In this document: piece after piece, positions 9,340 through 63,148 of the stretch | Layout of the letters: every line of letters begins with the position of its first letter | Numbering within the stretch: the stretch's first letter is position 1 | Origin: Oceaniferula flava | GTDB taxonomy: Bacteria > Verrucomicrobiota > Verrucomicrobiia > Verrucomicrobiales > Akkermansiaceae | Direction of reading: 5' to 3' | Assembly (NCBI RefSeq): GCF_016811075.1 | Contig: NZ_JAFBGL010000001.1 | Span: forward strand, 558,001-622,000 | DNA length: 64,000 bases | Notes under the pieces: generated by a model | The model's input: the letters and a program-made list of their open reading frames with translations, nothing else | What the model was told of the DNA's origin: nothing | Databases searched by the model: none | Made by a program: the position numbers and the translations under genes

Positions 9340-11820
9340 TCAAGCTGCGTAGAGGGCGTTTTCGAGCGATTTGACGGCGTCTAGGTAGGCATTTTTACTA
9401 CCGAAATGCTGGATGATCTCAATGGGACTGCCGAGGTGGGATATAGGCTGGACTTTGAGCAGCCGGATGGGATCGGTATCGATGTCCTTGAGGCCGGTTT
9501 CAGCGTATTTTTCCAACAGGGCATCGAGGACAGCGCGGGCTTGCTCGGAGTGCTGGGTGTAAACATCAGATTGCTGGGCTTTCTTGGCACGCTCACTACG
9601 AGTCAAGGCGGGCTGATCGAAGGCGACGTGGCAGATGAGATCAAAGGCATCGTAATCCTTGCCGACTTTATCGCGGAGGGCACCGAGGATGAGGCCCTGA
9701 TTCGCGAGTTCGTCGATGATGGCTTGTTTTTGCTCCTCGGACGACCAGCGCTGGAGAAAGTCGTCGAGGTTGGTGTAAGTTTTGCCGACCGTTTTTTTAG
9801 TGTAGTCTGTGAGCGAAGCAGTGATCAGCTGGCCTTTGGAATTGAGATACTGAATGCGCTCGGCAAGCACGCTGACACTGATGCCGCTAACACGGTATTT
9901 TTTGACTTCGGTGTCTTCTGGATCGAAGGCTCCGTCGCTGCCAGTGGTGGTGATGAAATCGCCAGGCTCTTCGTCTAAATCGCCGCTGCCTGTGCCTGGT
10001 AGATCGTTTTCGGGTTCGTCTGGCTCGGGTGACTTGTTGTTTTCATCCCCCTCGGGTGGTGTTAGTGGGTCGCCGGGTTTGGGTTCGTAGATCTGGACGG
10101 GATCGCCGTCGAAGTCAGGGTCGGCGAAATTATCGGTGGCCTTGCGGAAATCGATGATGGTGAAGAACGTTTTGCCGTGTTCCTCATTGATGCGGGTGCC
10201 ACGACCGATGATTTGCTTAAACTCGGTCATCGATTTGATGGTGCGATCAAGCACGATGAGCTTGCAGGTCTGGGCATCGACACCGGTGGTCATGAGCTTG
10301 GATGTGGTGGCGACGACGGGATAATCAGACTCGGGGTCGATGAAGTTATCGAGCTGGGCTTTGCCCTCCGGGTTATCGCCGGTGATGCGCATGACCCACT
10401 TATCGTTGGTGGCGTTCAATTCCGGGTTAGCGTTGACCATGGCCTGGCGCATGCGCTCGGCGTGGTCGATATTTTCACAGAAGATAATGGTCTTCGCCAT
10501 GGTGCCGGTCTCGGCGATGAACTTGGACACGGTGTTGGCGACGAGCTGGGTGCGATCGTCGATGATCATGTTTCTATCGAAATCTTTCTGACCATAGATG
10601 CGGTCTTCGATTTCGTTACCATCATCATCGAGTTGACCTGCTTCTGGTCGAAACCCCTGCACGTCTTTGTCGATATCGATGCGAACCACTTTGTAGGGAG
10701 CGAGAAAACCATCGTCGATGCCCTGCTTGAGCGAGTAGGTGTAGATGGGATCGCCGAAGTAATGGGTGTTTGATGCGTCTTTGGTTTCCTTCGGCGTGGC
10801 GGTGAGGCCGACCTGAGTGGCGGCGGAGAAGTAGTCGAGAATTTCCCGCCACTCGGAATCTTCTTTGGCGGAGCCGCGGTGGCACTCATCAATGATGATG
10901 AGGTCGAAGAAGTCCTCGGAGAACTGCTTGTAAACTTTCTTGGATTCGGTGGGGCCGGTGAGGGCCTGATAGAGGCCGAGGTAAATCTCGCGTGAGGTAT
11001 CGACCTTGCGTTTCTTGTCGATGCCGAGCCTGATAGTTTCCTTGGTGCCGTCGTCGCGTTCGATGGTTTTGGACTTGGTGGAGAGCTTGGCCATGGCATC
11101 GCCTAGCGGGCGGAAGTCGTTGACCATGGTTTGATCGATCAGGATGTTGCGGTCGGCGAGGAAGAGGACGCGTTTTTTGGTCTTCGCTTTCCAGAGCCGC
11201 CAGATGATCTGCAGGGCGGTGTAGGTTTTGCCCGTGCCGGTGGCCATGACGAGGAGGATGCGGTTTTGCCCTTTGGCGACAGCTTCGATAGTGCGGTTGA
11301 TGGCGTTGAGCTGATAGTAGCGCGGTTTTTTATCGGAGCCGTCGGAGTGGAAATTCTGGCGGATGAGCGGGAGCTGGTCGGCGGGCCATTGCTCGATTTT
11401 TTTCCAGCGTTCCCAGAGGGCTTTGGGTGAGGGGAACGCGTCGAGGGGGATTTCCGTTTCACTGGTGTATCCGGGGTGCGAGAGATCGCGCATGACAAAG
11501 CCGTCGCCATTGGATGAGAAAACGAAGGGGACGGGCATCATTTTTGCGTAGCCGAGTGCTTGCTGCATACCGGCGCCGATGCTGTGCTTGTTATCTTTCG
11601 CCTCGATGATGGCGATCGGGATGTTGGGTTTGTAGAAGAGAACGTAATCGATCTTTTTGCAGGCAGCGCGTGTGGAGTGGCTACCAAAAACCTGCACGCG
11701 GCCTTGAGTCAGGGGATATTCCTCAAGCATCTGAGTTATAATGTTCCAGCCGGCGGCCTTGATGGCTGGGGTGATGAATTTGGTGCGGATGTTGTATTCG
11801 CCGAGGTTTTTTTTATTCAT
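9340..11820 (-). CDS. hsdR: Type I restriction endonuclease subunit R (HsdR)
   Basis: The 826-residue protein begins with a PD-(D/E)xK nuclease domain: I-D-Y-V at Asp58, A-I-I-E-A-K with Glu73 and Lys75, and a Q-x3-Y motif at Gln87/Tyr91. A superfamily 2 translocase follows, with Walker A M-A-T-G-T-G-K-T (192-199), D-E-C-H (311-314), L-T-A-T-P and a Q-I-I-G-R-G-T-R motif VI. An acidic Pro/Asp/Glu linker near 590-640 precedes an EcoEI-type C-terminal domain. It cuts unmodified DNA after ATP-driven translocation. It is the first gene of the hsdR-X-hsdM-hsdS operon. Confidence 0.95.
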   Translation of the reverse strand: MNKKNLGEYNIRTKFITPAIKAAGWNIITQMLEEYPLTQGRVQVFGSHSTRAACKKIDYVLFYKPNIPIAIIEAKDNKHSIGAGMQQALGYAKMMPVPFVFSSNGDGFVMRDLSHPGYTSETEIPLDAFPSPKALWERWKKIEQWPADQLPLIRQNFHSDGSDKKPRYYQLNAINRTIEAVAKGQNRILLVMATGTGKTYTALQIIWRLWKAKTKKRVLFLADRNILIDQTMVNDFRPLGDAMAKLSTKSKTIERDDGTKETIRLGIDKKRKVDTSREIYLGLYQALTGPTESKKVYKQFSEDFFDLIIIDECHRGSAKEDSEWREILDYFSAATQVGLTATPKETKDASNTHYFGDPIYTYSLKQGIDDGFLAPYKVVRIDIDKDVQGFRPEAGQLDDDGNEIEDRIYGQKDFDRNMIIDDRTQLVANTVSKFIAETGTMAKTIIFCENIDHAERMRQAMVNANPELNATNDKWVMRITGDNPEGKAQLDNFIDPESDYPVVATTSKLMTTGVDAQTCKLIVLDRTIKSMTEFKQIIGRGTRINEEHGKTFFTIIDFRKATDNFADPDFDGDPVQIYEPKPGDPLTPPEGDENNKSPEPDEPENDLPGTGSGDLDEEPGDFITTTGSDGAFDPEDTEVKKYRVSGISVSVLAERIQYLNSKGQLITASLTDYTKKTVGKTYTNLDDFLQRWSSEEQKQAIIDELANQGLILGALRDKVGKDYDAFDLICHVAFDQPALTRSERAKKAQQSDVYTQHSEQARAVLDALLEKYAETGLKDIDTDPIRLLKVQPISHLGSPIEIIQHFGSKNAYLDAVKSLENALYAA

Positions 11821-12461
11821 GCTTTAGCCTGGATAAGGGGGGATTACTAACAGGTTTCAGTTGGATGAAAAAAATTAGCAGGAAGCCTAAGCGATGACAA
11901 GGAGTCAGGAGGTAATTATCGTTAGATGAAAACCAGTCTGCTTAAGTATCCGATCCACTGGCCAAAGATTGGATGATGGGGGCGCGGCGTTGCTTGGATG
12001 TCGTCCACTCCAGGTTCCAAGTAGCGACGGTGAGGGCTGATGCGTTCATGTCTGACGTTAGGATGCTACGGGGTCTCGGGCTAGATCTTTCCTCCTATAA
12101 AAAACTCCCAAAGTCTAACCACTGCGATAATCTCTGGGGATGGTTTTTAGCAGTAGGAGCAGGTCTTTTTCCAATCGGTCGGGGTCGTCTTTCATCAGTA
12201 GCTTGGGAAGAGGGGAGATCTAGTTAGTATGGGGCTAGCCTGAGGGGGGCTGTTTGGCATCACCGTATTGCCAGTGAAAGTGTGAGGACCATATCCTAGC
12301 TGCTGGGGTGTGACATTTAATGGGTGATCTGCATGTGTGATGTTAACTTGATCACAGGATGACAGGCTTTCTCAATGTTGCATGACAGAGCTTGGGTGGA
12401 TTTTCCTTATGTGAGAAAGTGCGCGCGCTATATTTCGCCAAAATCACCTGATTATCCGACG
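11821..12461. other. 641-nt intergenic region between divergent hsdR and the glycan locus
   Basis: It must hold the minus-strand hsdR promoter and the plus-strand promoter of the glycosidase at 12462. A short inverted repeat TGTGAT (12336-12341)/ATCACA (12351-12356) lies about 105 nt before that start and could be an operator. An 84-codon plus-strand frame at 11973-12227 has no recognisable composition or ribosome site and is not called. I found no tRNA 3'-end duplicate, integrase remnant or insertion sequence. Confidence 0.5.
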
Positions 12462-13439
12462 ATGAAAAAATTTCCATACTCCCTGTGTTTACTTGGTGCG
12501 ATTGTGTCCCAGGCGCTCGCTGCCCCCGCCAAGTCCGAGCTCCCGACCGTGAACGTTACCCATTCGGCCCTGGAAGGGATTGGTGTGGAGAAGGGGGTGA
12601 TGCGTCGTGACCCCAGTGATGTGATCAAGGTGGGGGATCTTTATTACGTCTGGTATTCCAAGGGGAAGATTTCGCCCGGCTACGATGCGACGGTGTGGTA
12701 TGCCACTTCGCCGGACGGCAAGCAGTGGACCGAACAAGGGATGGCTCTGGCCAAAGGAAAGGCGGGCACTTGGGAGGACGAGAGTGTGTTTACTCCGAAC
12801 ATCCTCGTGGCCGAAGGGCGCTACTGGTTGTTTTACACCGGCGTTTCGAAAAAATACGGCAAGGGCTTCAACCCCGATTCGAAAATTGGACTCGCTGTTG
12901 CCGATTCGCCCGACGGGCCATGGGAGCGCAGTCCGGCGAACCCGGTGATTACCAATAGCGAGCAGGCGGAGGATTTCGATAGTCATCTGATCGACGATGC
13001 CTGCCTGATCGTGCGCGATGGCAAATACTGGTGTTACTACAAAGGGCGCCAGCTTGGGAAAAGTCCGGGGCAGACACAAATGGGGGTGGCGATCGCGGAG
13101 AAACCTGGCGGTCCATATATCAAACATCCCAAAAACCCCGTCATCCCCGGCAACCATGAGGTGTTGGTCTGGCCCCAAGGCAAGGGGGTGGCCGCGATGA
13201 TCGGCTCGACCGGCCCGAAGGACATTATCAACTCGGTGATGTATGCGGAAGACGGGATTCACTTCACCAAGACCCACCAGGTTCAATCCGGTCCTTGGGC
13301 CGGTGGCGCCTATCGCCCTGAGGCCTTCACCGATAGCGATCAGGGCACGTTGCCTGAGTGGGGCGTGGAAATTGGCCGGGCCAAGAAGCAGCTGCCGTTC
13401 ATCCATCGCTTCGATGTGCAACTCGAACCCGCAGGCTAA
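12462..13439 (+). CDS. Secreted five-bladed propeller glycosidase, GH43/GH117-type
   Basis: The start at ATG 12462 gives MKKFPYSLCLLGAIVSQALA, a clean signal peptide; an earlier in-frame ATG at 12375 would spoil it. The mature 305 residues show repeated propeller motifs: R-R-D-P-S-D-V-I-K-V-G-D-L-Y-Y-V-W-Y, A-T-S-P-D-G-K-Q-W-T, S-V-F-T-P-N-I-L-V and D-D-A-C-L-I-V-R-D-G-K-Y-W. Such D-P-S and F-T-P-N motifs occur in GH43, GH117 (neoagarobiose hydrolase) and relatives. It probably removes a terminal sugar from a galactan or similar polymer in the periplasm or outside. Family choice between GH43 and GH117 needs a profile search. It is the first gene of the sulfatase-rich locus. Confidence 0.7.
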   Translation: MKKFPYSLCLLGAIVSQALAAPAKSELPTVNVTHSALEGIGVEKGVMRRDPSDVIKVGDLYYVWYSKGKISPGYDATVWYATSPDGKQWTEQGMALAKGKAGTWEDESVFTPNILVAEGRYWLFYTGVSKKYGKGFNPDSKIGLAVADSPDGPWERSPANPVITNSEQAEDFDSHLIDDACLIVRDGKYWCYYKGRQLGKSPGQTQMGVAIAEKPGGPYIKHPKNPVIPGNHEVLVWPQGKGVAAMIGSTGPKDIINSVMYAEDGIHFTKTHQVQSGPWAGGAYRPEAFTDSDQGTLPEWGVEIGRAKKQLPFIHRFDVQLEPAG

Positions 13440-13485: not shown

Positions 13486-14772
13486 ATGAAAATGACCTCT
13501 GCACTCCCGCCCCTTGCCCCTCGTTGGCTCGCCCTCATGGCCGCTCCGGCCTTGATGATGCCAATTGGCTGCCAGCAAAAAGACAGCAGCACCTCATCGA
13601 ACAGCGAAATCGGTGCCTTCGCCGATGATGCCGCATTCATGAAAGAACACACCGATCTCGTGGTGTTGAAAAAAGGTGACGCTGCCGTGGCTGTGGCTCC
13701 GGCATGGCAGGGTAGGGTGATGACCAGCACCTACGACCACGAGCAAGGGCCGAGCTTCGGCTGGATCAATCGTCCCGTGATAGAGAATGGCATCCTTTCC
13801 GAAGAGGAGGCCCAAGGGAAGTTGGAGTCGCACATTTACATCTTCGGCGGTGAAGAGCGGTTCTGGCTGGGGCCTGAAGGTGGCCAGTATGCGCTCTATT
13901 TCAAACCTGGGGCAAAGTTCGAATTCTCCGATTGGAAAACGCCCGCCGTGATCGATACCGAGCCCTTCAAGATGGTGGAACAGAGCGAGGCATCAGCGAG
14001 CTTCGAGCATCAGGCGAAGCTGCAAAATTACAGCGGCACTGAGTTCCATGTCGGCATCAAGCGCACCGTCACCGTGCTGGATAAGGCGGATGCCTCGAAG
14101 CTGCTCGGCGTAGATCTCGCCGACGGGATTCGTATGGTGGGATACGAAACCGATAACCGCATCACCAATCAGGGTGACGAGGCATGGAAACCGGAGACCG
14201 GTTTGCTGTCGATTTGGTTGTTAGGTATGTATAACCCGTCACCCACCACCACTGTGGTCATCCCATTCAAGTCGGGCAGCGATGCCGAGCTGGGGCCGAA
14301 GGTGAACGATTCTTATTTCGGCAAGGTGCCGGAGGATTATCTGCAGGTCAAAGACGAGGTGCTTTACTTCAAGGGCGACGGCACACGCCGCGGGAAGATC
14401 GGCATCAGCCCGCAGCGCTCCAAGGGGATCGCCGGGAGCTACGATGCCGCCGGAAAGGTGCTGAACATCGTGACCTACAACGTGCAGGAAGCTCCTCACG
14501 GATTTGTGAACTCGATGTGGGAAATCCAGAAGGAACCATACGTCGGTGATGTGATCAACTCCTACAACGATGGCTCCCCTGAGCCTGGGGCCGATCCGCT
14601 GGGGCCTTTTTACGAGTTGGAAACCTCGTCGCCAGCGGCAGCTCTTGAGCCTGGGGGCACGATGCAGCATGTGCAGCGGACCTTCCACATCCAAGGCAGT
14701 GAAGATGAGCTGGAGCCGCTCGCCAAGAGCCTCTTGGGTGTCAGCCTGAAGAGTATCGAATCGGCTTTTTAA
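13486..14772 (+). CDS. Outer-membrane lipoprotein, DUF6786-like
   Basis: The 428-residue protein has a hydrophobic N-terminus ending in M-P-I-G-C-Q-Q, a lipobox with Cys29 and Gln at +2, predicting an outer-membrane lipoprotein. The body is beta-rich, with segments such as A-W-Q-G-R-V-M-T-S-T and G-L-L-S-I-W-L-L-G-M-Y reminiscent of the galactose-mutarotase-like fold. It resembles proteins annotated DUF6786 in Verrucomicrobiota and Planctomycetota; I recall the family but cannot verify it here. The gene lies 46 nt after the glycosidase and 128 nt before a sulfatase, so a role in binding or trimming the same glycan is likely. No catalytic residue is recognised. Confidence 0.6.
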   Translation: MKMTSALPPLAPRWLALMAAPALMMPIGCQQKDSSTSSNSEIGAFADDAAFMKEHTDLVVLKKGDAAVAVAPAWQGRVMTSTYDHEQGPSFGWINRPVIENGILSEEEAQGKLESHIYIFGGEERFWLGPEGGQYALYFKPGAKFEFSDWKTPAVIDTEPFKMVEQSEASASFEHQAKLQNYSGTEFHVGIKRTVTVLDKADASKLLGVDLADGIRMVGYETDNRITNQGDEAWKPETGLLSIWLLGMYNPSPTTTVVIPFKSGSDAELGPKVNDSYFGKVPEDYLQVKDEVLYFKGDGTRRGKIGISPQRSKGIAGSYDAAGKVLNIVTYNVQEAPHGFVNSMWEIQKEPYVGDVINSYNDGSPEPGADPLGPFYELETSSPAAALEPGGTMQHVQRTFHIQGSEDELEPLAKSLLGVSLKSIESAF

Positions 14773-14900
14773 GCCCGGCGATTTGGCATCGTTCGCGGCA
14801 ATCCCACGCTACTCCAGAAAAAATCCCCACTTTGAAAGATTCTTCGCTAGGTGCGGGGCGGTGACTCCGTATGCTTGTGGCACATCTACATTCGATCAAT

Positions 14901-16451
14901 ATGATTTTGAAAAAACACGCATTGTCACGACTTCTAATCACCGCGCTGGGTTCCATGGTGGGCCTGGGCGCATTACCCGCGGTCGACGCGGCCCGAAAAC
15001 CTAACGTCATTCTGATTTACGCCGACGACCTGGGGATTGGGATGCTCGGGTGTTACGGGCAGAAAATTGTCACCACTCCCAACATCGACCGGCTCGCCGC
15101 CGAGGGCATGAAGTTTAATAACTACTACGGCGGTGTGTTCTGTGCCCCGTCACGCTGGTCGCTCTCCACCGGGATGCACGACGGTCGTCTGGGCGGATGG
15201 AAGCACAACGCTCCCGGCTTGTTGATCCGACTCGATAAGAAGAACACGCCACCCGAAAAAGCGACCGAGCTGCTCAACCAGTATGTCGAGAAATCGTCTG
15301 CTCCGATCCCTAAAAAAGAGGTGTTCATGGCGCAAATTCCTCAGAAGGCCGGTTATAAGACCGCGCAGTTCGGAAAGCTGGATGTCGGCTTCCTAACAAA
15401 TCACGACCGAGTCAAGCGCTTCGGCTGGGATTTCTACGAAGGTTATTACAGCCACGGTCGTTGCCACGGCTTTTATCCTCCGTATCTTTGGCGCAATGGT
15501 GAGCGCTTTGAGCTCGAGGGGAACACCCGCGCCGACTGCGGCAAAATGAGTGAGAAGGGCAATGAACCTGTCGGAGAAGGCGGCGAGACCTACTCGCAAA
15601 ATGTTTTCATCGAGGGCATCCTCAAATACATCCGCGATCATAAAAACGAGCCGTTTTTCCTCTATCACTCCACCCAGCTTCCCCACGGACCGGTCGCCAT
15701 CCCCGAGCTGCATCCGGACTATGCCGATAACGACAAGCTTTCGCTGGCTGAGAAAAAATACGCCTCGATGGTGAAGATGTTAGACGATCATGTCGGTCTC
15801 ATCATGAAAGAGCTCAAGGCTCAGGGCCTGGACGAAAATACCATCGTAGCCTTCACCTCAGACAATGGTCACGAGATGTATTACGGCCCGAAGCAAAACG
15901 TGCACAAGCAGCTTGCGAACGGCGAGAAGGCGAACCTCACGGATAACAAGTGGCGCACCTCCAATGGCGGCGACGTCTTTGACGGTGCCGGCGGCCGTGC
16001 CGGGATCAAGCGCTCCGGCTACCAAGGTGGCATGCAGTGCCCGATGATCGTGCGCTGGCCTGGCAAAATTGCCCCCGGAAGCGAGACCGATATTCTCAGC
16101 GCCCACTACGACTTCATGGCCACGCTCGCCGACATCACCGGAACCCGCATGCCAAGAGGGAAGGACAGCATCTCGTATTTGCCAACCTTGTTAGGGAAGA
16201 AGCAAACCAAGCAGCACAACTACGTGATTGTGAATAATGGATTCGATCGCATGGGTCGCTCAGCGTTGATCTCCCAAGACGGCTGGAAAGTGGTCGAGCT
16301 CGATCGCAAAAAAGACGCCTTCCAACTCTACAATATCAAGAAAGACAATGAGGAGCGGGACGAACTCTCGGCCCAGCATCCTGAAAAATTATCCAGTCTG
16401 AAAAAACAGCTGGTCAGCGAGCTGAACTCGAAGCGCCCTGACCTAAAGTAA
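14901..16451 (+). CDS. Secreted sulfatase (type I, formylglycine-dependent)
   Basis: The start at 14901 gives MILKKHALSRLLITALGS with a signal peptide to about residue 30. The 516-residue protein has N-V-I-L-I-Y-A-D-D-L-G near 35-45 (metal Asp pair) and C-A-P-S-R at 81-85, the Cys-type formylglycine site. A T-S-D-N-G metal segment lies near 320. It hydrolyses a sulfate ester on a carbohydrate outside the cytosol after maturation of Cys81. An unusual insertion-rich middle (about 95-140, Lys/Glu-rich) may set substrate specificity. Upstream in-frame ATG 14871 is less likely as it would extend the signal. Confidence 0.93.
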   Translation: MILKKHALSRLLITALGSMVGLGALPAVDAARKPNVILIYADDLGIGMLGCYGQKIVTTPNIDRLAAEGMKFNNYYGGVFCAPSRWSLSTGMHDGRLGGWKHNAPGLLIRLDKKNTPPEKATELLNQYVEKSSAPIPKKEVFMAQIPQKAGYKTAQFGKLDVGFLTNHDRVKRFGWDFYEGYYSHGRCHGFYPPYLWRNGERFELEGNTRADCGKMSEKGNEPVGEGGETYSQNVFIEGILKYIRDHKNEPFFLYHSTQLPHGPVAIPELHPDYADNDKLSLAEKKYASMVKMLDDHVGLIMKELKAQGLDENTIVAFTSDNGHEMYYGPKQNVHKQLANGEKANLTDNKWRTSNGGDVFDGAGGRAGIKRSGYQGGMQCPMIVRWPGKIAPGSETDILSAHYDFMATLADITGTRMPRGKDSISYLPTLLGKKQTKQHNYVIVNNGFDRMGRSALISQDGWKVVELDRKKDAFQLYNIKKDNEERDELSAQHPEKLSSLKKQLVSELNSKRPDLK

Positions 16452-16589: not shown

Positions 16590-19500
16590 ATGAACACCAT
16601 TCGTTTTTCCTTCCTCGCCATCGTCTCTCTCTGGGCGCTTTTGTTGTCGCCTCAACTCAGTGCTGCCGAAAAGTCGGATTACACCATTTTGTTCTATGGT
16701 AACTCGATGGTGGAACGTCTGCTAGAGCATGGTGAGCTGGAGGCGCGACTGCAAATTGCGCGGCCGAAGGCGAAGTTGAAAGTGCGCAGTTTTGCCTGGA
16801 CCGGAGACGAGGTGGGCAATCGGCTTCGACTCGAAGGCTACGCCAAGCACATGAAAAACCTCATCGCCGCGTGGCCGGCGGATAAGCTGGTGTTAGGCTA
16901 CGGGTTTTACGAATCCTTTGCCGGAAAAAAGGGGCTGGCTGAGTTCGAGGACCAATACCGGATTCACCTGACCCAGCTGTCCCAAGTCCACCCGGGAGCG
17001 AAGATCGTCATGCTCTCGCCAATTGCCAGTGAGGATGCACCCGCCGAGCGCAACGCCCAGATTGAGCTCTATGCCAATGCGATCAAGAAACTTGCCGCAG
17101 AGGTGAATGCGGAATACATCGATCTCTTCACCCCGACCCGTGACGCCTACGCCGCTTCCGAGGCCAAGCTGACGACGCGAGGCATCCACCTGAACGAGGC
17201 CGGAAACCGCCTAGTCGCCAAGATCATTGCCGAGGCTCTGGTCGGTGCGGTGAAAGTCAATCCCAAGCACCTCCACGAGGTGGCCCTCGCCGCCACGGCC
17301 AAGCACGAGCGCGTGGCTGAGATTGTGCGTCCTAAGAATGCCGTGGTCTACTTCGGCGTGCGCGCCCGCCCGCAGGAGTATGCCGATGAAATGCCGCGCT
17401 ATCACAAGATGATCGAGCTCACCGATGCGGTGGTCCACCAACTCGCTGCGAATCCAGGGAAGAAATTCTCCGAGATGGAAAAACCCTCTCTGCCACCGAT
17501 GCCGAAGGGGAAAAGCAAGAAGGCAAAAAATGGTTACGGGATCATCAAAAGTGTCACGGAAGCGGAAGCCGAGTTCAAGGTCGCCGATGACTACGAGGTC
17601 AACCTCTTCGCCTCGGAGGAACAATTCCCCGAACTGCGCAACCCCGTGCAGATCTCCTTCGATGCACGTGGTCGGCTCTGGGTGGTCACCATGCCATCGT
17701 TTCCCCACACCGTTCCTGGCCTGACACCTCCGGACAAGATCCTCATCCTCGAAGACACGGATCACGATGGAAAAGCCGACAAATGCACCACCTACATGGA
17801 AGGTCTCGACGCCCTCGACGGAGTCGCTTTTCACCGTGAGGGAGTCATCATTTCTGAGCAACCACGCTTGTGGATGACTCGCGATACCGATGGCGATGGC
17901 AAAGCCGACGTGCAACATGAGCTGCTGCGCGGTATCGATGTCACCGACTCCCACCACGGAGGGATGATTCAATCCGACCCGAGCGGCGACATCATTTTCA
18001 GTGACGGGGTGTTCCACCGCTCGCAGTTAGAGACTCCCTTCGGTGTGCACCGCGGGATCGACGCCACCACTTACCGACTCGATGTCGCCAGTGGCAAAAT
18101 CAACACCGAATATCAACACACCACACCGAACCCATGGAATGTCGATTTCGATCGCTACGGTGACATGTTCCAGATGTATGGGGACGGCATCTTTTACGAT
18201 AGCACTGTGCTGCCATGGACGCCGCTGGGCGCTTACCATCCATTCCGCTACGGCTCGATTGGCCAGTTTGGCAAAGGCTCCGGGATTGCCGTGGTTTCCA
18301 GCCCGAATTTCCCGGAAATCTATCAGCAAGGCATGGTGTCCGCCTCGCTGCTGGGTAAATACGCCGTGACCCTGACCCAGTTTGATTACAGCGAGGGCAT
18401 GATCAAACGCGACAAGACCGAAGTCATCCTCTCCTCTCCGAACGCCGCCTTCCGCCCGGCTGATCTGGAGTTCGGGATGGACGGAGCTCTCTACGTCTCC
18501 GATTTCTGCAGCCCGATCATTGGTCACGCCCAGCACCCGATGCGTGATCCAGGCTGGGATCATGACTATGGCAGAATTTGGAGAGTCGTTCACAAGGGGA
18601 AACCTCTCGTGAAAGAGGTTCCCAACATTGAAGGAGCATCACCGGACGAACTCTGCGAGCTGCTCGTAAGTCCCCAAGATTTGGTGCGCAAGCACGCCCG
18701 CATCGAGCTGCGCAAACATGGCGCCGAAGGCATTGCGGCGGTCGATCGCTGGATCGGCAAAATGGATCGCAACAGCCCGAATTTTGATCAAGCAGCGTTG
18801 GAGACTCTGTTTGTCTGCGGTGGCCTCAATGAAGCTCGTCCTGAGTTGCTCAAGGCCCTGTTGAACTCCAAATCCTACCATTTCCGTGGTGCGGCCGTGA
18901 ACCAAATCCGTCTGCTGGCAGAGCATCTCGACAACGTGGGCCAACTGCTCGGCAAGATGGCCAAGGACGAACATCCGCGGGTTCTCATCCAGGTGATCGG
19001 TGCGATTTCCCACCTGCAGAAAACCCATCCGGAGCTCACGCAGATCTTGGATTCCATCGAATCCGACAACAAACACGTGGTCAACACCCTGAAAGCGTTA
19101 GAATACGGCACGGAGCCGATCAAGGGGCGCAGTGTCCCGGTGTTGGAGGTGGATCCACAATCTGAACTCACCCACTGGTTCCGCTATGCTCCAGGAGGAA
19201 AAGGTCAGCCAGTTCTGCACACTTCGAAGAAACCTTCCGGAGGTGGTGTGAACCTCTACCGGACATTCATCGAATCGGAGAAAGAGCAATCGGCCATCAT
19301 CGGCATCAATCACAAGGCGCTTGATATCTTCGTCAACGGCAGCCTCGTATTCAGCCAGAATTCTCTGTGGAGTGGCGACCAGCAAGTCCAAGTCGATCTG
19401 CAGGCCGGGGTGAATGTCATCGAAATCGAGCTCCAAAAAGGGCGGAGATCCACGAAGAGGCTTCCTGCTGTGTATCTCTACGATCCAGTGGGCCGCGCCC

Positions 19501-20552
19501 TTGGTGGGGTCAAGTATGTCAGTAGCACGCAAGAGCTGAAACGTCTCACCGCGGCGCACGACAAGATGCTAAAGGCGCGCGGCACGGTGCTCCGTGTCAC
19601 CGCCGCTCCCGGTTTACAATTTGCCCCGAAGACTCTGCGTGTGGAGCCTGGATCGAAAGTCAGGCTCATCTTTGAAAACCCGGACAACATGGAGCACAAC
19701 TGGTTGCTCTTGGCTCCAGGGAGCGTGGCGGAAATCGGAGCCCTCGCCGATCAAATGGCGGCGGAGTCTGGAGCTGTCGAAAAGCATTACATTCCAGAGT
19801 CGAATAAAATCCTCGTCCACTCGAAACTACTCGGACCCGGCTCGAAGCAAGAGCTGGTCTTCACCGCTCCGGAGCAAGCTGGCGAATACCCCTACATCTG
19901 CACCTTCCCTGGCCACTGGCGTGTCATGCAGGGTGTGCTGACCGTGGCGAAAGCCGACGCCCCCGAAGCCAAGCCAGCCAACAATCAGGGTAAGGTGAAA
20001 AAGGGGAAAGCTCCCGTCCGGAACATTGGCAACGGGGTGATCTATGAAAGCAGCGCGAAGGCCAATGGTTTTCAAAAGCTGGTGCCACCCAGCCAGCCCA
20101 GAGGCAAGGTCACTAGCTCGACCAAGACCAACAACCAGCCGCTGTCGGTTCTCACCGATGGCAAGCTGACCGCCGGATTTGGTCCGATATTTGCCAACAA
20201 GGTGACCGATGGCGCCTACAAGATGGACCTTGGGAAAAGTGAATCCGTCACGGCCATCACCAGCTGGGCGAACAACCACAAAGGCGTTCGCGGTGCCCAG
20301 AAAATCTCGATTTACGGCAGCAACCATAGCTCGGACCCCGGCTGGGATTTGTCCGATCAAAAACGATTCACTCCGCTGGCGAGCCTCAGTAGCCAAGGCG
20401 AAAAGGTGGAGGCATTCACTGCGCTGTCCCTGCGTGATGCCAAGGGAAAACCACTGGGCCAGTTCCGCTGGATCGTCTGGCAGGTGCACCCGATTTCCCG
20501 CAGCGGAGAGAATACCGCATTCCAAGAACTCGCGGTTCAGACAGCCAAGTAA
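16590..20552 (+). CDS. Secreted multidomain PVC-type dehydrogenase with SGNH, HEAT, azurin-like and discoidin-like domains
   Basis: The 1320-residue protein has a signal peptide ending S-P-Q-L-S-A-A-E. Residues about 30-220 form an SGNH hydrolase-like domain (F-Y-G-N-S-M near the start, G-I-H-L-N-E-A-G-N at its end). About 330-680 form a six-bladed PVC membrane-bound dehydrogenase propeller with D-T-D-G-D-G-K-A-D calcium-type loops. About 685-860 hold alpha-helical HEAT-like repeats, then a beta domain with D-I-F-V-N-G. About 1000-1125 form an azurin-like domain with copper ligands His1036, Cys1104, His1109 and Met1113. The C-terminal 170 residues look discoidin-like. It likely oxidises a sugar and passes electrons to copper. 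No C-x2-C-H heme motif is present, unlike many relatives. Confidence 0.85.
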   Translation: MNTIRFSFLAIVSLWALLLSPQLSAAEKSDYTILFYGNSMVERLLEHGELEARLQIARPKAKLKVRSFAWTGDEVGNRLRLEGYAKHMKNLIAAWPADKLVLGYGFYESFAGKKGLAEFEDQYRIHLTQLSQVHPGAKIVMLSPIASEDAPAERNAQIELYANAIKKLAAEVNAEYIDLFTPTRDAYAASEAKLTTRGIHLNEAGNRLVAKIIAEALVGAVKVNPKHLHEVALAATAKHERVAEIVRPKNAVVYFGVRARPQEYADEMPRYHKMIELTDAVVHQLAANPGKKFSEMEKPSLPPMPKGKSKKAKNGYGIIKSVTEAEAEFKVADDYEVNLFASEEQFPELRNPVQISFDARGRLWVVTMPSFPHTVPGLTPPDKILILEDTDHDGKADKCTTYMEGLDALDGVAFHREGVIISEQPRLWMTRDTDGDGKADVQHELLRGIDVTDSHHGGMIQSDPSGDIIFSDGVFHRSQLETPFGVHRGIDATTYRLDVASGKINTEYQHTTPNPWNVDFDRYGDMFQMYGDGIFYDSTVLPWTPLGAYHPFRYGSIGQFGKGSGIAVVSSPNFPEIYQQGMVSASLLGKYAVTLTQFDYSEGMIKRDKTEVILSSPNAAFRPADLEFGMDGALYVSDFCSPIIGHAQHPMRDPGWDHDYGRIWRVVHKGKPLVKEVPNIEGASPDELCELLVSPQDLVRKHARIELRKHGAEGIAAVDRWIGKMDRNSPNFDQAALETLFVCGGLNEARPELLKALLNSKSYHFRGAAVNQIRLLAEHLDNVGQLLGKMAKDEHPRVLIQVIGAISHLQKTHPELTQILDSIESDNKHVVNTLKALEYGTEPIKGRSVPVLEVDPQSELTHWFRYAPGGKGQPVLHTSKKPSGGGVNLYRTFIESEKEQSAIIGINHKALDIFVNGSLVFSQNSLWSGDQQVQVDLQAGVNVIEIELQKGRRSTKRLPAVYLYDPVGRALGGVKYVSSTQELKRLTAAHDKMLKARGTVLRVTAAPGLQFAPKTLRVEPGSKVRLIFENPDNMEHNWLLLAPGSVAEIGALADQMAAESGAVEKHYIPESNKILVHSKLLGPGSKQELVFTAPEQAGEYPYICTFPGHWRVMQGVLTVAKADAPEAKPANNQGKVKKGKAPVRNIGNGVIYESSAKANGFQKLVPPSQPRGKVTSSTKTNNQPLSVLTDGKLTAGFGPIFANKVTDGAYKMDLGKSESVTAITSWANNHKGVRGAQKISIYGSNHSSDPGWDLSDQKRFTPLASLSSQGEKVEAFTALSLRDAKGKPLGQFRWIVWQVHPISRSGENTAFQELAVQTAK

Positions 20553-20586: not shown

Positions 20587-21993
20587 ATGATTAAAAAATA
20601 CCTCCAGCTTTCCGTGCTTGCCGCCGCTGCGGTGGCGACGAGTCATGTGCAAGCAGACGACACCGCTGCCAAGCCACGCCCTAACATCCTGTTCATCTTT
20701 TCCGACGACTGGGGCTGGGGCGATCTCAGCTGCCACGGGCACCCGTATATCAAGACCCCCAACATCGATCGCCTCGCCAAAGAGGGGACCGATTTCCAGA
20801 ACTTCACCGTGGCCAGCGGCGTCTGCTCACCGAGTCGGGCCGCCGTGATGACCGGCTTGTTTCCTGCGCGCTTAAATATCACCGGTCACTTCGCCACACC
20901 GCGAAGCAATGCCGCGCGCAACATGCCCGACTGGGTAGACCCCGAGATCGTGACGATTCCTCGACTGCTGAAAAAAGCCGGCTACATGACCGGCCACTTC
21001 GGCAAGTGGCATCTATCGAACAACATGATCCCGGACTCACCGCGTCCTGAAAAATATGGTTACGATATGGTCGGTGCCTTCAACTGCTCCGACGAGCAGA
21101 TGCCGGTGCATGACGACGCTAAAAATGCCATCGCCCTGATCGAAAAAAGTGTCAAAGCGGAGAAACCGTTTTTCATCAACCTCTGGGTGCACGAACCGCA
21201 CACGCCGTTCCACACTCTGCCGGAATACCGCAAGCGTTTCCCCGATCTTCCGGAAAAGGCGAACATCTATGCCTCCGTGCTGTCCCATGCGGACGACCGC
21301 ATCGGCGAGGTGCTGGACACCTTGGATCGTCTCAACCTGACCAAAAACACGCTGGTGATTTTCAGCTCGGACAACGGACCGGCCGGAAGTGGGCCCACTA
21401 ACAATAGAAAGCTCACCACCATGCATGATACCGCCACTGGCGAAGGCTATGGCATCGCTGCCAGCGTGGGGACGACGGGTGGTCGTCAGGGACGCAAGGG
21501 GTCGATCTATCAAGGTGGCATTGGCGTGCCCTTCCTCGTGCGCTGGCCGGAACAAGTCGCTGCCGGGGCTCACGACAAAGTGTCGTGGATTTCCGCTGTC
21601 GATCTACTGCCGACCTTCTGTGAAATTGCCGGAGCTCCCTTGCCTGCCGGCTATCAACCGGACGGCGTGAGTCAGGTTTCCGTGCTCAAAGGCAGCCCGG
21701 CCAAGCTGCGCTCGAAGCCGCTTTTCTGGAAAAAGCAGAAGGCGCGCAAAAGTGATGCCGACTACGCTGTGCTCGATCAAAAATGGAAGCTGCTCGCCAG
21801 TGCCGATTTGAAAAAAGTCCAGCTCTACGACATCAGCGTTGACCCTCTGGAGAAAACGGAGATCCGCAGCAAGCACCCTGAGGTCGTTGCCGAATTGGTG
21901 AAACAACTCGAAGCCTGGATCGCCACACTGCCGACCAAGGTGGATCCCAAACTCATGTCCGATCACCGCCCTAAACAAGGGGCAACCAAGTAA
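20587..21993 (+). CDS. Secreted sulfatase (type I)
   Basis: The 468-residue protein has signal peptide MIKKYLQLSVLAAAAVATSH with cleavage near V-Q-A. It shows P-N-I-L-F-I-F-S-D-D-W-G-W-G-D (metal Asp pair 40-41) and the formylglycine motif C-S-P-S-R at Cys80. It then has H-F-G-K-W-H-L (near 140) and S-S-D-N-G-P (near 261). It desulfates a glycan in the periplasm or outside. It starts 35 nt after the azurin-fusion gene and ends 36 nt before the esterase, so the three genes are one transcript. Confidence 0.95.
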   Translation: MIKKYLQLSVLAAAAVATSHVQADDTAAKPRPNILFIFSDDWGWGDLSCHGHPYIKTPNIDRLAKEGTDFQNFTVASGVCSPSRAAVMTGLFPARLNITGHFATPRSNAARNMPDWVDPEIVTIPRLLKKAGYMTGHFGKWHLSNNMIPDSPRPEKYGYDMVGAFNCSDEQMPVHDDAKNAIALIEKSVKAEKPFFINLWVHEPHTPFHTLPEYRKRFPDLPEKANIYASVLSHADDRIGEVLDTLDRLNLTKNTLVIFSSDNGPAGSGPTNNRKLTTMHDTATGEGYGIAASVGTTGGRQGRKGSIYQGGIGVPFLVRWPEQVAAGAHDKVSWISAVDLLPTFCEIAGAPLPAGYQPDGVSQVSVLKGSPAKLRSKPLFWKKQKARKSDADYAVLDQKWKLLASADLKKVQLYDISVDPLEKTEIRSKHPEVVAELVKQLEAWIATLPTKVDPKLMSDHRPKQGATK

Positions 21994-22028: not shown

Positions 22029-23570
22029 ATGCTCAAATCATCCATTCTCCTCAGCGCCGCCCTGCTCGCAGGCACCTTGGCCAACTTACAGGCCGAGCTT
22101 CGTCCTGCTTCCTTGTTCCAGAGCCACATGGTTCTTCAACGCGGCACCCAGCTCCCGGTCTGGGGAGATGCCGATCCGGGCGCGACGGTCACCGTTGAGT
22201 TCTCCGGACAGAAAAAGTCGGCCCGCGCCGACGCCAAGGGGAAGTGGATGCTCAAGCTGGATCCTCTGCCGGCGACCAAGCAGGCAAAGACGATGACCTT
22301 TTCCTCCAAGCTCAAAACGGAAGCGGAGAAACTGGAACTCCGTGATGTCGTGGTTGGCGAGGTGTGGATCTGTGCCGGGCAATCGAACATGCAGTTCGGC
22401 GTTAAGAATTCGCCGGGAGTGAAGGCCTTGCTGCCCAAGGTGAAGAACATCCGCAGCTTTACCGTGAAGCGCACCGTCGCCTTCACCGAGCAAGACCGCT
22501 GCGAAGGCAAGTGGGTGGATCAATACCCGGACAGTGCCGTCGCCTTGGCCTTTGCCCATTCCCTGCAGCAGCACGAAGATGTGCCGGTGGGGATCATTCT
22601 TACCTGCTGGGGCAGCTCATCACTGGAGGCTTGGATGCCGCGTGACATGACCGAGACGGTGCCGCATTTCAAAACTATGATGGAGGAGTTCGATGCCAAT
22701 AAGGAAGCGCACGAGCAGATCAAGGCCGCTCTGAATGCGCCTAAGGGGTGGACGAAAAAAGAGGACATCTTTCTGCGCCGGCAAACGAACATTCTCTACA
22801 ATGCCATGATGCACCCGCTGGCTCCCTACGCCTGCCGCGGACTGGTCTGGTATCAGGGCGAGCGCAATACCCAATCGATGTTCGGTATGCTGAAAACCCC
22901 ATGGTTTTCGAGAAACTCCGGCATGCTGATCTACGGTGATGTGCTGAAAAAGTGGATCGCACGCTACCGTCAGGAATGGGACAACGAGGAGATGCACTTC
23001 CTCATCGCGATGCTGCCAGGTTACGGCAAAGTGCTGCCCACCGGACCGAACCGCGATCCCCAAAGCCCCACGGCTCACTCATGGGCATGGATGCGCGAAG
23101 CCCAGCTCAAGGCACTGCAACTTGATGGCGTCAGCGTGGCCAACACGGTGGACCTCGGCGATATGAAAAATGTGCACCCCAAGGACAAGCTTCCCGTCGG
23201 GCAGCGTTTGGCTCTGCTAGCCGCCCGTGATGTGTATGGCAAAAAACTAGAAGCTCAAGGGCCAGTGATGAACAAGGTGATTGGCAGTGGGGGGCGCATT
23301 CATGTGGTCTTCGATCACGCCGAGGGGTTGAAAACCAACGATGGCAAGAGCCCGAGCGCTTTCTGGATCGCGGATAGCAATCGGAAGTGGCACCAAGCGG
23401 AGGCGAAGATCGTGGGCCAAAGTGTCGTGTTGCAGTCGGATCAAGTGGCCGAACCAAAGTTCGTCCGCTACGCCTTTGCCGGTATGCCGAAAGTAAATTT
23501 GGTCAATGGGGAGGGGCTTCCAGCCTATCCGTTCCGCAGCGACGACTTCCAGCCGAAGCTGCGGAAATAG
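22029..23570 (+). CDS. Secreted sialate O-acetylesterase-type carbohydrate esterase
   Basis: The 513-residue protein has a signal peptide (MLKSSILLSAALLAGTLANL). It starts its mature part with a G-A-T-V-T-V-E-F-S-G beta domain, followed by E-V-W-I-C-A-G-Q-S-N-M, the SGNH nucleophile block near residue 117. Other blocks are C-W-G-S-S-S-L-E-A-W, G-L-V-W-Y-Q-G-E-R-N-T and a C-terminal D-M-K-N-V-H-P-K-D-K-L-P-V-G catalytic His block near 383. It should remove O-acetyl groups from sugars of the sulfated polymer rather than sialic acid as such. It is the last gene of the transcript started upstream. Confidence 0.88.
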   Translation: MLKSSILLSAALLAGTLANLQAELRPASLFQSHMVLQRGTQLPVWGDADPGATVTVEFSGQKKSARADAKGKWMLKLDPLPATKQAKTMTFSSKLKTEAEKLELRDVVVGEVWICAGQSNMQFGVKNSPGVKALLPKVKNIRSFTVKRTVAFTEQDRCEGKWVDQYPDSAVALAFAHSLQQHEDVPVGIILTCWGSSSLEAWMPRDMTETVPHFKTMMEEFDANKEAHEQIKAALNAPKGWTKKEDIFLRRQTNILYNAMMHPLAPYACRGLVWYQGERNTQSMFGMLKTPWFSRNSGMLIYGDVLKKWIARYRQEWDNEEMHFLIAMLPGYGKVLPTGPNRDPQSPTAHSWAWMREAQLKALQLDGVSVANTVDLGDMKNVHPKDKLPVGQRLALLAARDVYGKKLEAQGPVMNKVIGSGGRIHVVFDHAEGLKTNDGKSPSAFWIADSNRKWHQAEAKIVGQSVVLQSDQVAEPKFVRYAFAGMPKVNLVNGEGLPAYPFRSDDFQPKLRK

Positions 23571-23638: not shown

Positions 23639-23719
23639 TAGCTTGACGAGAACGAGGGCAATTTGGGGTCTGATTTCCAAGCTTGCCAAATCGAAATACA
23701 TAATACATACATCACAATC

Positions 23720-24283
23720 ATGAAGGTTAAGCATTCAAGTTCTAGGAGTTCGGTCGGCGGCTTTACACTGGTCGAAATCATCGTGGTCATCGCGATCATT
23801 GCCGTTCTGGCGACCATGACCGTGGGCGGTTTGAGTTTTTACAAGCAGAAGGCAGCTGAGAATAAGACCAAGGTATTCATTGCCAGCGTCTCCAGAGCCC
23901 TGGACGAGTATCATTCTGACTTCAACGAGTATCCGGAGGAAACTGCCAGCGATCTCGATGACAGCACCGAGATTTTGTATCGTGAACTTTACGGCGACGG
24001 AGCGGACGTCAATGTCGGCACCGGTGGAGCCGGAACCACTGATGGCTCACCGGATGAAGGCGCCACAGTCTACCTCGATGCCTTGAACCCGAACCTCGCC
24101 GGCTCGCAGAAGAATGTGGAAGAGTCCGGTGGCGAATACTTCCTCATCGACGGTTTCCGCAACCGACTGCGCTACCGCAACGATCCCAACAGCCCGGATA
24201 TGCAAAACCCGGACTACGATCTCTGGTCGGCTGGTCGCGATGGCGATGACGACGAAGAGAAGGACAATATCGATAACTGGTAA
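23720..24283 (+). CDS. GspG-like type II secretion pseudopilin
   Basis: The start at ATG 23720 gives a short basic leader (MKVKHSSSRSSVGGF) and a prepilin peptidase site G-G-F-T-L-V-E-I followed by a hydrophobic helix (I-V-V-I-A-I-I-A-V-L-A). The body has the GspG pattern E-N-K-T-K-V-F-I-A-S-V-S-R-A-L-D-E-Y and ends D-L-W-S-A-G-R-D-G-D-D-D-E-E, as GspG does. At 187 residues it is slightly longer than the usual 140-150, with an acidic Gly/Thr insert near 100-120. It sits alone between esterase and unknown genes and ends at its own terminator. No other secretion gene is nearby. Confidence 0.85.
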   Translation: MKVKHSSSRSSVGGFTLVEIIVVIAIIAVLATMTVGGLSFYKQKAAENKTKVFIASVSRALDEYHSDFNEYPEETASDLDDSTEILYRELYGDGADVNVGTGGAGTTDGSPDEGATVYLDALNPNLAGSQKNVEESGGEYFLIDGFRNRLRYRNDPNSPDMQNPDYDLWSAGRDGDDDEEKDNIDNW

Positions 24284-26613: not shown

Positions 26614-26702
26614 TCGGTTCTCCTCCATTTGGAGGGTAGACGCGATGACGCGCTTCGTGAAAGGATCGTCGAGTGGGCAAGGTAGATTGCCTGATAGACA
26701 TC

Positions 26703-29189
26703 ATGATGATCCTCAAAAAAATAAGCTTCACATTGGGCTGCGCTCTGGTGGCGCACTCGCTAGCGCATGCGGACGCGCGTTTTGAGCTGCACTATGACCG
26801 CCCTGCGAACGACGAGGCTCCACCTAATCGGGCCATGGGGAAATCGACTCAGAAATCCGGGTTCATCCAGACGGCGTTGCCCTTGGGGAATGGTCGCTTG
26901 GGCGCGATGTTTTCTGGCGGCATTTCCAAGGAACACTTGATGACTAATGACATCACTTTGTGGATGAATGCCAAGCGCGGCCAAGATGCCGGCGAGCAAT
27001 CATCCTCTCGCAAGGTCACTCCGGAGCAGCTTGATCAGGTGCGTGAGGTTTATCGCAAGGGGAACACAGGCACCGGTCCGGAGAGCATGGAGACGATGTC
27101 GACCAAGTATCTCAGCACCCAAGAAAAGTTAGGAAATTACGCGCCGTTCACCGATGTTTGGATCGATACCGGGCATGATCCCAAGCAGGTGACCGATTAC
27201 CGTCGGGCACTCGATATCCGAAGCGGAGTGGGATTGGTTTCCTACGAGCTCAACGGTGGCCAGTTCACGCGCGAAATTTTCTGCAGCTACCCGCACGATG
27301 TGATGGTCACGCGGCTACGTGCGAAGGAGTCGACCCTGAACCTGACGGTGAGCACAAAAACCAAGCACAAGGGGGCGAAAGTTTCTGCCGAGGGAAATCG
27401 GATCACCTTGCTCGGCGAGGCGGCGATGATTCAAGACAACGTCGAGTTCATGCAACTCATCCACATCGAGGCCGTCGATGGTGAGCTCGCGGCGCAGCCT
27501 GATGGATCGGTCAAGATCAGTGGAGCCACGGATGTGCGAATCTATCTGGCGGGGTATAACGATTACTTGCCGAAGTATCCCAGCTTCAAAGGCAGAGACC
27601 ACCGAGGAGATACGCTCAGCACCCTGAATGCCGCTGTGAAACTCGGCTACGAGGTGCTCAAGGAGGCCCATGTGGCGGATGTCGCCAGCCTGATGGATCG
27701 CTGCCGTTTGGAGCTCGATTTCACAGCGTCCGGAGTCCCCACCAATCAACTGGCCAAGCAGGAGAGCCGGGAGCTGGAGAACCTTTATTTCCATTACTCA
27801 CGCTACCTGCAGATCAGCTGCTCGCGGGGAGCTCCGGTGCCTTCCAACCTGCAAGGACTGTGGAACGATCGGCTGAAGCCGGTTTGGAACTGCGATTACC
27901 ACACCGATATCAACCTCGCGATGAACTACTGGATGGTGGAAACGGCGAACCTGCCAGAATCCTTCAGCCCTTATGTGGAATACATGAAGGTGATCGCCGA
28001 GTCGGGGGCCCACAGCGCCCGCCGGACCTTCAATGTGAACAAGGGCTGGAGCATGGGGCTGAATGGCAACGTCTTTGGATTCACGGCCCAGAATGAACAC
28101 GGACGCCGCACCCAGCAGGCGGGACACTGGCTGTCACAGCATCTTTTTGAACACTACGCATTCGGTCGCGACCCGCAATACCTCGAGCAGGTGTATCCCA
28201 TCATGAAAGGCGCGGCGGAGTTCTTTGTGGAGCACCTCGCGCCATGGAAGGATGGCAGCTTGGTGGTGTATCCGACTTGGTCGCCAGAAAATAACTACCA
28301 CCGACAGAAACTCAACAAGCAGGCATACGGCGCGTCATGGGATCAGCAATTGGTGCTCAATCTGTTCACCGACTGCATTGAGGCGTCCTACATTCTCGAG
28401 CGCGATACTGAGTTCCGCCAGACTTTGCAAAAGATGATCCCACGACTCTGTCCGCAGAAAATTGGCAAACACGGCCAGCTGCAAGAGTGGCCCGAGGATT
28501 GGGATGACCCCAAGAATACCCACCGTCATATTTCGCACCTCATCGCCCTGCACCCGGGTCGAGATATCTCACCCTTGACCACTCCTGAACTCTATCAGGC
28601 GGCGCTGGTCACGATGAAACATCGCGGGGATCAATCGACGGGATGGAGCACCGGCTGGAAGACCAACTTCTGGGCTCGACTGCACAATGGCGACCGGGCG
28701 CATAAGATTTACAAGTTTCTAACGTCCAAGAGATCTTATCCCAACCTTTTCGATTTCCACCCGCCGTTCCAGATCGATGGCAACTTCGGCGGTGGTGCCG
28801 GCGTCTGCGAAATGCTACTGCAAAGTCACCTGCGCAGTGTGAATGATGAGGCCACAAGCATCGAAGAAGCTGCCTTTGTCGCTTACCAGCCGGATGCCAA
28901 TCATCCGCAGCACTTTGTCCCCGTCGTGCCGGATGACAAGCTGGTCGAGGCTCCCTACATCCTGCACCTGCTACCGGCCTTGCCCACCGCGTGGTCGAAA
29001 GGAAACGTCCGAGGCCTCCGCGCTCGCGGCGGTCTGGAAGTGGATATCGATTGGGCCGAGAACCGCCTGCAAAAAGCCACCATCCGCGCCACCTGCGACA
29101 CCCGCTTCCGTCTCTATCACGATGGATCATTCAGCGAGGTGATGACCTTGAAAAAAGGGGAGTCGACCCGGTGGCCAGCCAAAGACTAA
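26703..29189 (+). CDS. GH95 alpha-L-fucosidase
   Basis: The start at 26703 gives MMILKKISFTLGCALVAHS, a signal peptide; the frame is open further upstream to 26673. The 828-residue protein has the N-terminal beta domain block A-L-P-L-G-N-G-R-L-G-A-M. The (alpha/alpha)6 barrel carries N-L-Q-G-L-W-N, D-I-N-L-A-M-N-Y-W with Asp402 and Asn404, S-P-E-N with Glu529, and I-D-G-N-F-G-G with Asp692. These map to the catalytic set Asn, Asn, Glu, Asp of GH95 (1,2-alpha-L-fucosidases), except that the first Asn is Asp here. It would release terminal fucose (or galactose-configured) residues by inversion. It lies between unknown genes and two sulfatases. Confidence 0.9.
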   Translation: MMILKKISFTLGCALVAHSLAHADARFELHYDRPANDEAPPNRAMGKSTQKSGFIQTALPLGNGRLGAMFSGGISKEHLMTNDITLWMNAKRGQDAGEQSSSRKVTPEQLDQVREVYRKGNTGTGPESMETMSTKYLSTQEKLGNYAPFTDVWIDTGHDPKQVTDYRRALDIRSGVGLVSYELNGGQFTREIFCSYPHDVMVTRLRAKESTLNLTVSTKTKHKGAKVSAEGNRITLLGEAAMIQDNVEFMQLIHIEAVDGELAAQPDGSVKISGATDVRIYLAGYNDYLPKYPSFKGRDHRGDTLSTLNAAVKLGYEVLKEAHVADVASLMDRCRLELDFTASGVPTNQLAKQESRELENLYFHYSRYLQISCSRGAPVPSNLQGLWNDRLKPVWNCDYHTDINLAMNYWMVETANLPESFSPYVEYMKVIAESGAHSARRTFNVNKGWSMGLNGNVFGFTAQNEHGRRTQQAGHWLSQHLFEHYAFGRDPQYLEQVYPIMKGAAEFFVEHLAPWKDGSLVVYPTWSPENNYHRQKLNKQAYGASWDQQLVLNLFTDCIEASYILERDTEFRQTLQKMIPRLCPQKIGKHGQLQEWPEDWDDPKNTHRHISHLIALHPGRDISPLTTPELYQAALVTMKHRGDQSTGWSTGWKTNFWARLHNGDRAHKIYKFLTSKRSYPNLFDFHPPFQIDGNFGGGAGVCEMLLQSHLRSVNDEATSIEEAAFVAYQPDANHPQHFVPVVPDDKLVEAPYILHLLPALPTAWSKGNVRGLRARGGLEVDIDWAENRLQKATIRATCDTRFRLYHDGSFSEVMTLKKGESTRWPAKD

Positions 29190-62986: not shown

Positions 62987-63148
62987 GATGAGAAAAACTG
63001 ATTCGTTGAAAATGAGGGGCTTGTCTTCAGGGTGGAAGTCGAAGCTCGTCATCGGGCGATTCGGCGGCAGAGCAATTAAGCCCTTAGCAGGTCGCTTGCC
63101 AAGTGCGAAGTCTGTCAGGACAAAGGCGGAGCGAGGGGGCTGAAATGG

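Follow-up and report, generated by a model that had tools for sequence, protein, structure and literature searches.

A verrucomicrobial dehydrogenase-type propeller protein with an azurin-like copper domain in the place of a cytochrome c

A large secreted protein encoded by Oceaniferula flava (Verrucomicrobiota) combines a propeller related to sugar dehydrogenases with a domain of the azurin type, at the place where its sister proteins carry a cytochrome c. It is probably an enzyme that oxidises sugars and brings its own electron acceptor in the form of copper, acting in a locus of the sulfated-fucan type; copper loading, direction of electron flow and substrate are what we infer from sequence and models. 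The parts are already known, as are tethered redox partners, and sequence databases contain many examples of the architecture. What is new, and apparently undescribed, is the repeated exchange of copper and heme modules that comparison of sequences indicates, together with the occurrence of copper and heme in series within one chain. The window analysed here, a stretch of 64,000 nucleotides, comes from a genome of 3,953,077 bases in 51 contigs. Its relevant features are the following:

12375-13439, forward strand: GH43/GH32-like gene (Pfam)
13486-14772, forward strand: DUF6786 gene (Pfam)
14871..16451, forward strand: sulfatase, upstream (Pfam)
16590..20552, forward strand: SGNH - propeller - HEAT - beta-sandwich - azurin protein, 1320 aa, ATG start, predicted secreted
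16590..16667, forward strand: Sec signal peptide, residues 1-26 (sequence read by eye)
16773..17213, forward strand: GDSL/SGNH-like domain, residues 62-208 (Pfam Lipase_GDSL_2, 45.9 bits, cut-off 32.9)
17553..18590, forward strand: six-bladed dehydrogenase-type propeller (DUF7133/TIGR02604), residues 322-667 (Pfam, NCBIfam, AF2 model)
17952-17954, forward strand: codon of H455, counterpart of the GSDH catalytic His
18642..19109, forward strand: HEAT-type helical repeats, residues 685-840 (helices in the AF2 model)
19167..19514, forward strand: beta-sandwich, family unassigned, residues about 860-975 (strands in the AF2 model)
19557..19955, forward strand: azurin/auracyanin-like type-1 copper domain, residues 990-1122 (Pfam, phmmer, AF2 fold)
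19695-19697, 19899-19901, 19914-19916 and 19926-19928, forward strand: codons of the copper ligands H1036, C1104, H1109 and M1113
20007..20549, forward strand: C-terminal extension, residues 1140-1320, discoidin-like by eye
20587..21993, forward strand: sulfatase, 34 bp downstream of the azurin gene (Pfam)
22029..23570, forward strand: SASA-type acetylesterase, 35 bp further downstream (Pfam)
26673-29189, forward strand: GH95, alpha-L-fucosidase/galactosidase family (Pfam)
29202-30710 and 30732-32126, forward strand: two sulfatases (Pfam)

The chain opens with a Sec-type signal peptide, MNTIRFSFLAIVSLWALLLSPQLSAA, which reads by eye as devoid of a lipobox. In the GDSL/SGNH-like domain the Ser of GNS and the His of GIHLN are present, the block III Asn is replaced by Tyr107, though it is Asn in orthologues, and the block V Asp is absent (all by eye). 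Pfam places DUF7133 on residues 322-528 and NCBIfam places TIGR02604, the PVC-type heme-binding CxxCH protein, on residues 334-529 (169.8 bits for a cut-off of 122.2). Despite this match, no CxxCH motif exists anywhere in the 1320 residues, as originally predicted from the sequence. The SGNH, propeller and HEAT parts of the chain then proposed also stand, the last through helices of the structural model and a weak HEAT_2 match at residues 751-831, under the Pfam cut-off; the discoidin part does not fare as well, the extension at 1140-1320, found in close orthologues only, having no Pfam match at all. An AlphaFold2 model of residues 318-1125, made with 52 homologues, reached a pLDDT of 89.5 and a pTM of 0.72. 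A scan for promoters and terminators gave nothing exceeding chance.

The copper domain is the best defined of these parts. Pfam Copper-bind (PF00127) matches residues 1008-1119 (E 1.3e-11, 45.2 bits, cut-off 21.2), within the segment 1000-1125 where a cupredoxin had been predicted, and it is the only such match in the genome; the result named beforehand as refuting the prediction, a segment lacking any cupredoxin match, thus did not arise. When searched with phmmer against the PDB, auracyanin A came top (3.9e-14), followed by azurins, and the predicted ligand set, His1036 with Cys1104-x4-His1109-x3-Met1113, fell on the copper ligands of these proteins; all four residues are invariant in 52 of 52 relatives. 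Modelled in isolation the domain has a pLDDT of 94, and it superposes on auracyanin with Z 19.3 and an rmsd of 1.3-1.4 A, and on azurins with Z about 17. We therefore regard residues 990-1122 as confirmed, at the level of sequence and model, to have an azurin/auracyanin-type cupredoxin fold with a type-1 ligand set, which would bind copper. Since the azurin equivalog TIGR02695 scores only 40.4 bits, under its cut-off of 105.1, the domain is azurin-like rather than azurin proper. It shares fold (Z 17-19) and ligand pattern with auracyanins A and B and azurin; these are, however, free small proteins, and the residue beside the first ligand His departs from their Gly, being E1035 in our protein and varying among relatives.

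The propeller is more divergent. Its best structural neighbour is the PQQ-dependent sugar dehydrogenase 3a9g (Z 26.1, 3.0 A over 284 residues), followed by AA12 (Z 25.1) and the Coprinopsis pyranose dehydrogenase (Z 24.5). To be sure, the fold by itself is only suggestive, because lactonases and other propellers, non-redox ones included, reach Z 22-23. A profile-profile comparison by hhalign, with a GSDH (PF07995) profile built on GSDH sequences of related genomes, gave a probability of 94 and an E of 1.4e-7. In this alignment H455, invariant in 52 of 52 relatives, matches the conserved His of the GSDH H-x-G-G motif, the catalytic residue in sGDH; N514 matches the Asn of the RNPW motif, kept as Asn in all 52. 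The Arg and Asn of that motif are PQQ contacts in sGDH, and the Arg position is Pro in 46 of the 52 relatives, as it is here, and Thr in the other six. No PqqE scored over the cut-off in the genome. The Arg to Pro change and this negative result together make PQQ doubtful, or scavenged; it may be taken up from outside. The soluble PQQ sugar dehydrogenases thus share with our protein the fold, the position of the catalytic His and the RNPW Asn, but they are single-domain, carrier-free enzymes that keep the Arg, and the similarity is detectable by profiles only: searched by sequence against the PDB, the propeller profile retrieved no sugar dehydrogenase, and the link rests on fold and profile-profile comparison. 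On these grounds the propeller reads as a divergent relative of PQQ sugar dehydrogenases. A Ketogulonicigenium plasmid dehydrogenase is 27% identical across the propeller, and we found nothing tying it to a characterised enzyme.

How common is this arrangement? The first reading of the locus implied that it was unique, and this does not hold. An azurin-like match (E at most 1e-6) is present in 66 of 388 genomes of the phylum Verrucomicrobiota, in many cases within large proteins, and 57 of the 60 matching proteins that were read are fusions, of 418-1570 aa. The C-x4-H-x3-M spacing is kept in all of the 60 but one (L096), and CxxCH is absent from every one of them. A Pfam scan of 37 fusions found DUF7133 in 24, DUF6797 in 10, GDSL in 14, ThuA in six, a xylose-isomerase-like barrel in five and a 3-keto-disaccharide hydrolase in one. 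When named genome contigs were scanned with the family at full length, 79 loci were added, under titles that are almost all verrucomicrobial; the scan retained the best 80 of 343, a set that leans to close relatives. A MAG titled Klebsiella and another titled Proteobacteria, also among the 79, are probably mislabelled. All 80 ORFs reaching the region in that scan carry the azurin, and contig ends truncate two. Viral contigs gave one azurin-like match. Independent assemblies share the architecture, among them those of Roseibacillus persicicus and R. ishigakijimensis isolates, and a single occurrence is rejected. We found no published description of it in the open literature, subscription papers lying outside the search, in agreement with the earlier remark that no described example was known; in a 2021 survey of azurins the words 'fusion' and 'multidomain' do not occur (PMC8779525).

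Relatives in the PVC group were said usually to bear a heme domain. Each of the eight propeller paralogs examined from this genome has CxxCH and lacks azurin; the motif is also found in 29 of 30 DUF7133 loci fetched from the order, the remaining one being cut off. A tree of propellers only, from which three long branches had been removed, requires three changes between copper and heme. Forcing the azurin proteins into one clade costs 122 log units (AU test, p-AU 2e-34), which rules out a one-time gain of azurin and argues that the modules were swapped repeatedly. In the first tree, as cases in point, a heme paralog (L100, the same protein as L002) sits on the azurin side, and an azurin pair (L063/L097) on the heme side. 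As far as sequences can tell, azurin occupies the place of the cytochrome c of sister proteins, and replacement of one module by the other took place several times. Strict mutual exclusion is true of the 60 proteins read, and is broken by six loci of the contig scan (L124, L130, L133, L134, L142 and L173), where a CxxCH follows 66 residues past the azurin Cys; Pfam assigns this segment to Cytochrom_C in both loci tested. Because of these six, mutual exclusion gives way to modules that are exchangeable or in series, and the claim that heme is lacking, valid for our protein, fails for the family as a whole. The azurin-cytochrome c series is predicted to form a ready-made Cu-heme relay.

Several known systems help to place the protein. 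In copper nitrite reductases the tethered partner can also be a cytochrome. Those linked to redox partners show that a cupredoxin can be covalently attached to the enzyme that it serves, but the enzyme is unrelated and electrons enter the catalytic domain (PMC9358711). The PQQ pyranose dehydrogenase of Coprinopsis cinerea (AA12) likewise joins a sugar-dehydrogenase propeller (Z 24.5) to a one-electron carrier; it differs in being fungal, in its N-terminal heme b (cytochrome b) domain and in its proven PQQ, in ours only a candidate cofactor (PMC4332668; PMC5960967). Closest are the PVC propeller-HEAT-cytochrome c proteins of TIGR02604, such as Lac161_ORF7 (PMC5342196), which have in common with our protein the propeller and HEAT scaffold, a C-terminal carrier and the phylum; their carrier is heme c (CxxCH), whereas ours would be type-1 copper.

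The neighbourhood bears on the substrate. The gene had been placed in a sulfatase locus, and the sulfatases at 14871..16451, 20587..21993, 29202-30710 and 30732-32126 agree with this. In one relative (L151) the gene next downstream of the azurin protein encodes a sulfatase 60% identical to that of 20587..21993. In others such functions are joined in a single polypeptide: L116 is a chain of 3033 aa in which the propeller-azurin part is followed first by a sulfatase, then by a discoidin domain and last by a SASA esterase; L112 fuses the propeller-azurin chain to a sulfatase, and L109 to an alpha-L-fucosidase-like domain. The domain types resemble the neighbours of our gene, and the likeness is limited to their order, because the fused sulfatases of L112 and L116 are only about 28-33% identical to those of the window (BLAST), which does not support orthology; the SASA part of L116 gave no BLAST match with the SASA of the window. 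Sulfatases are the most frequent neighbour family of the relatives, yet at 14 loci only; they are thus rejected as general partners, and the link with sulfated glycans is confined to close relatives. Oceaniferula flavus 5K15 is a kelp isolate for which fucoidanase families have been reported (PMC9865893). Together with GH95, the sulfatases and the fucosidase fusion of L109, these families suggest, from gene content, a fucan-type substrate.

In the mechanism that we favour the protein would be exported to the periplasm or outside, where the propeller would oxidise a sugar hydroxyl, probably within a sulfated fucose-containing glycan. The tethered azurin would receive the electrons from the propeller one by one at its type-1 copper and relay them through cytochromes to aerobic oxidases; the genome has three COX1-type oxidase genes. 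Copper-based electron acceptance during sugar oxidation had been proposed at the outset: the acceptor role is the best reading, strengthened by the relatives with azurin directly before cytochrome c, while sugar oxidation and PQQ are only inferred. Against this reading count the RNPW change and the lack of a PqqE over cut-off, the Z of 22-23 of non-redox propellers, the report of a heme-bearing relative as a beta-galactosidase, and a sulfatase context limited to a minority of relatives.

The main rival, unlikely in our view but kept open by that relative, is a redox-assisted glycosidase: the propeller would cleave a glycoside, either through a transient oxidation followed by elimination or simply by hydrolysis, with the azurin merely resetting or tuning a cofactor, perhaps tightly held, and no net supply of electrons to respiration. 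Lac161_ORF7, a TIGR02604-HEAT-cytochrome c protein of a Chthoniobacter-like organism, was purified and is reported to hydrolyse lactose with a Km of 1.8 mM (PMC5342196), and the ThuA, xylose-isomerase-like and 3-keto-disaccharide hydrolase domains of fusion relatives fit a chemistry of 3-keto sugars. Yet a plain hydrolase needs no electron carrier, and all sampled members keep copper, heme or both; moreover, the propeller resembles sugar oxidases, not known glycosidases. One could also reverse the flow, with electrons of the respiratory chain entering the propeller, or an external copper oxygenase, by way of the azurin, as cupredoxins tethered to nitrite reductases donate to their enzyme (PMC9358711) and as AA12 pyranose dehydrogenase can drive LPMOs (PMC5960967). 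We hold this distinctly improbable: the propeller groups with sugar-oxidising folds, and the Pfam scan of neighbouring genes, as far as it extended, brought up no LPMO.

A role of the cupredoxin domain in storing or tolerating copper, or a structural one, apart from catalysis, would accord with a weak NCBIfam match to the copper-resistance cuproprotein CopI (19.8 bits for a cut-off of 280). It is very improbable in the face of an invariant type-1 ligand set, of a position interchangeable with heme c and of the azurin-cytochrome c series within single chains. As for a chance motif, or an artefact of assembly or fusion, no supporting point was found, and recurrence in independent assemblies with strong profile and fold matches already refutes it, leaving it hardly any credence.

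Propeller-plus-carrier proteins number in the dozens in many PVC genomes. That copper naturally stands in for heme at one site, and that some relatives have the two together, speaks strongly, on comparative grounds, for an electron-carrying role of the C-terminal modules and a redox role of the propellers. The copper variant opens a direct assay, as the right sugar should bleach its blue band. The sulfatase and fucosidase fusions suggest that oxidation is one of the steps by which fucoidan and similar sulfated glycans of algae are broken down, compounds that are recalcitrant and important as a carbon sink. Tentatively, and with more doubt than confidence, one may envisage in the Verrucomicrobiota a large and so far undescribed class of secreted sugar oxidisers built on one propeller scaffold, with azurin and heme c as interchangeable plugs or both serially, some of them fused with sulfatase, esterase and fucosidase into single-chain machines dismantling fucans. 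If true, this class would open recalcitrant sulfated glycans to attack by an oxidative route that is coupled to respiration.

Azurin is also joined to chains of another kind. In a second fusion family (loci L043, L046, L047, L048 and L050, read outside the window), it forms the C-terminus of proteins combining a xylose-isomerase-like barrel, DUF6797 and a propeller-like part, without DUF7133; these domains were identified by Pfam in L043 and L047, and assigned to L046, L048 and L050 by similarity to L043. At six further loci (L124, L130, L133, L134, L142 and L173) a single chain carries azurin with a cytochrome c domain immediately behind it. At L142, two adjoining but different dehydrogenase genes have in common a near-identical azurin-linker-cytochrome tail, as if it had been copied from one neighbour to the other.

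In the window protein itself, the block III oxyanion Asn of the SGNH domain is replaced by Tyr (residue 107, window 16908-16910), while Asn occupies this position in all four aligned orthologues. Because of this replacement, to judge from sequence, the esterase domain may be impaired. Other genes of the window include:

9340-11820 (-), type I restriction R-subunit-like gene
23663-24283 (+), pseudopilin-like protein, GFTLVEIIVVIAIIAVLATM
58337-63052 (-), 1571-aa ORF

The pseudopilin-like gene stands immediately after the azurin-fusion/sulfatase/SASA locus, and its product is possibly related to secretion.

The description of the strain lists GH29 fucosidases (PMC9865893), yet a PF01120 search of its whole genome gave no match. 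Neither the azurin fusion nor DUF7133 propellers were found in the listed g2-coded genomes of the same family, although among relatives the number reaches up to about 30. In another chain of the window's genome (L102:2406-5333, contig C5), a 3-keto-disaccharide hydrolase domain is combined with a DUF7133 propeller and with cytochrome c, and this single protein may thus wire together 3-keto cleavage and sugar oxidation.
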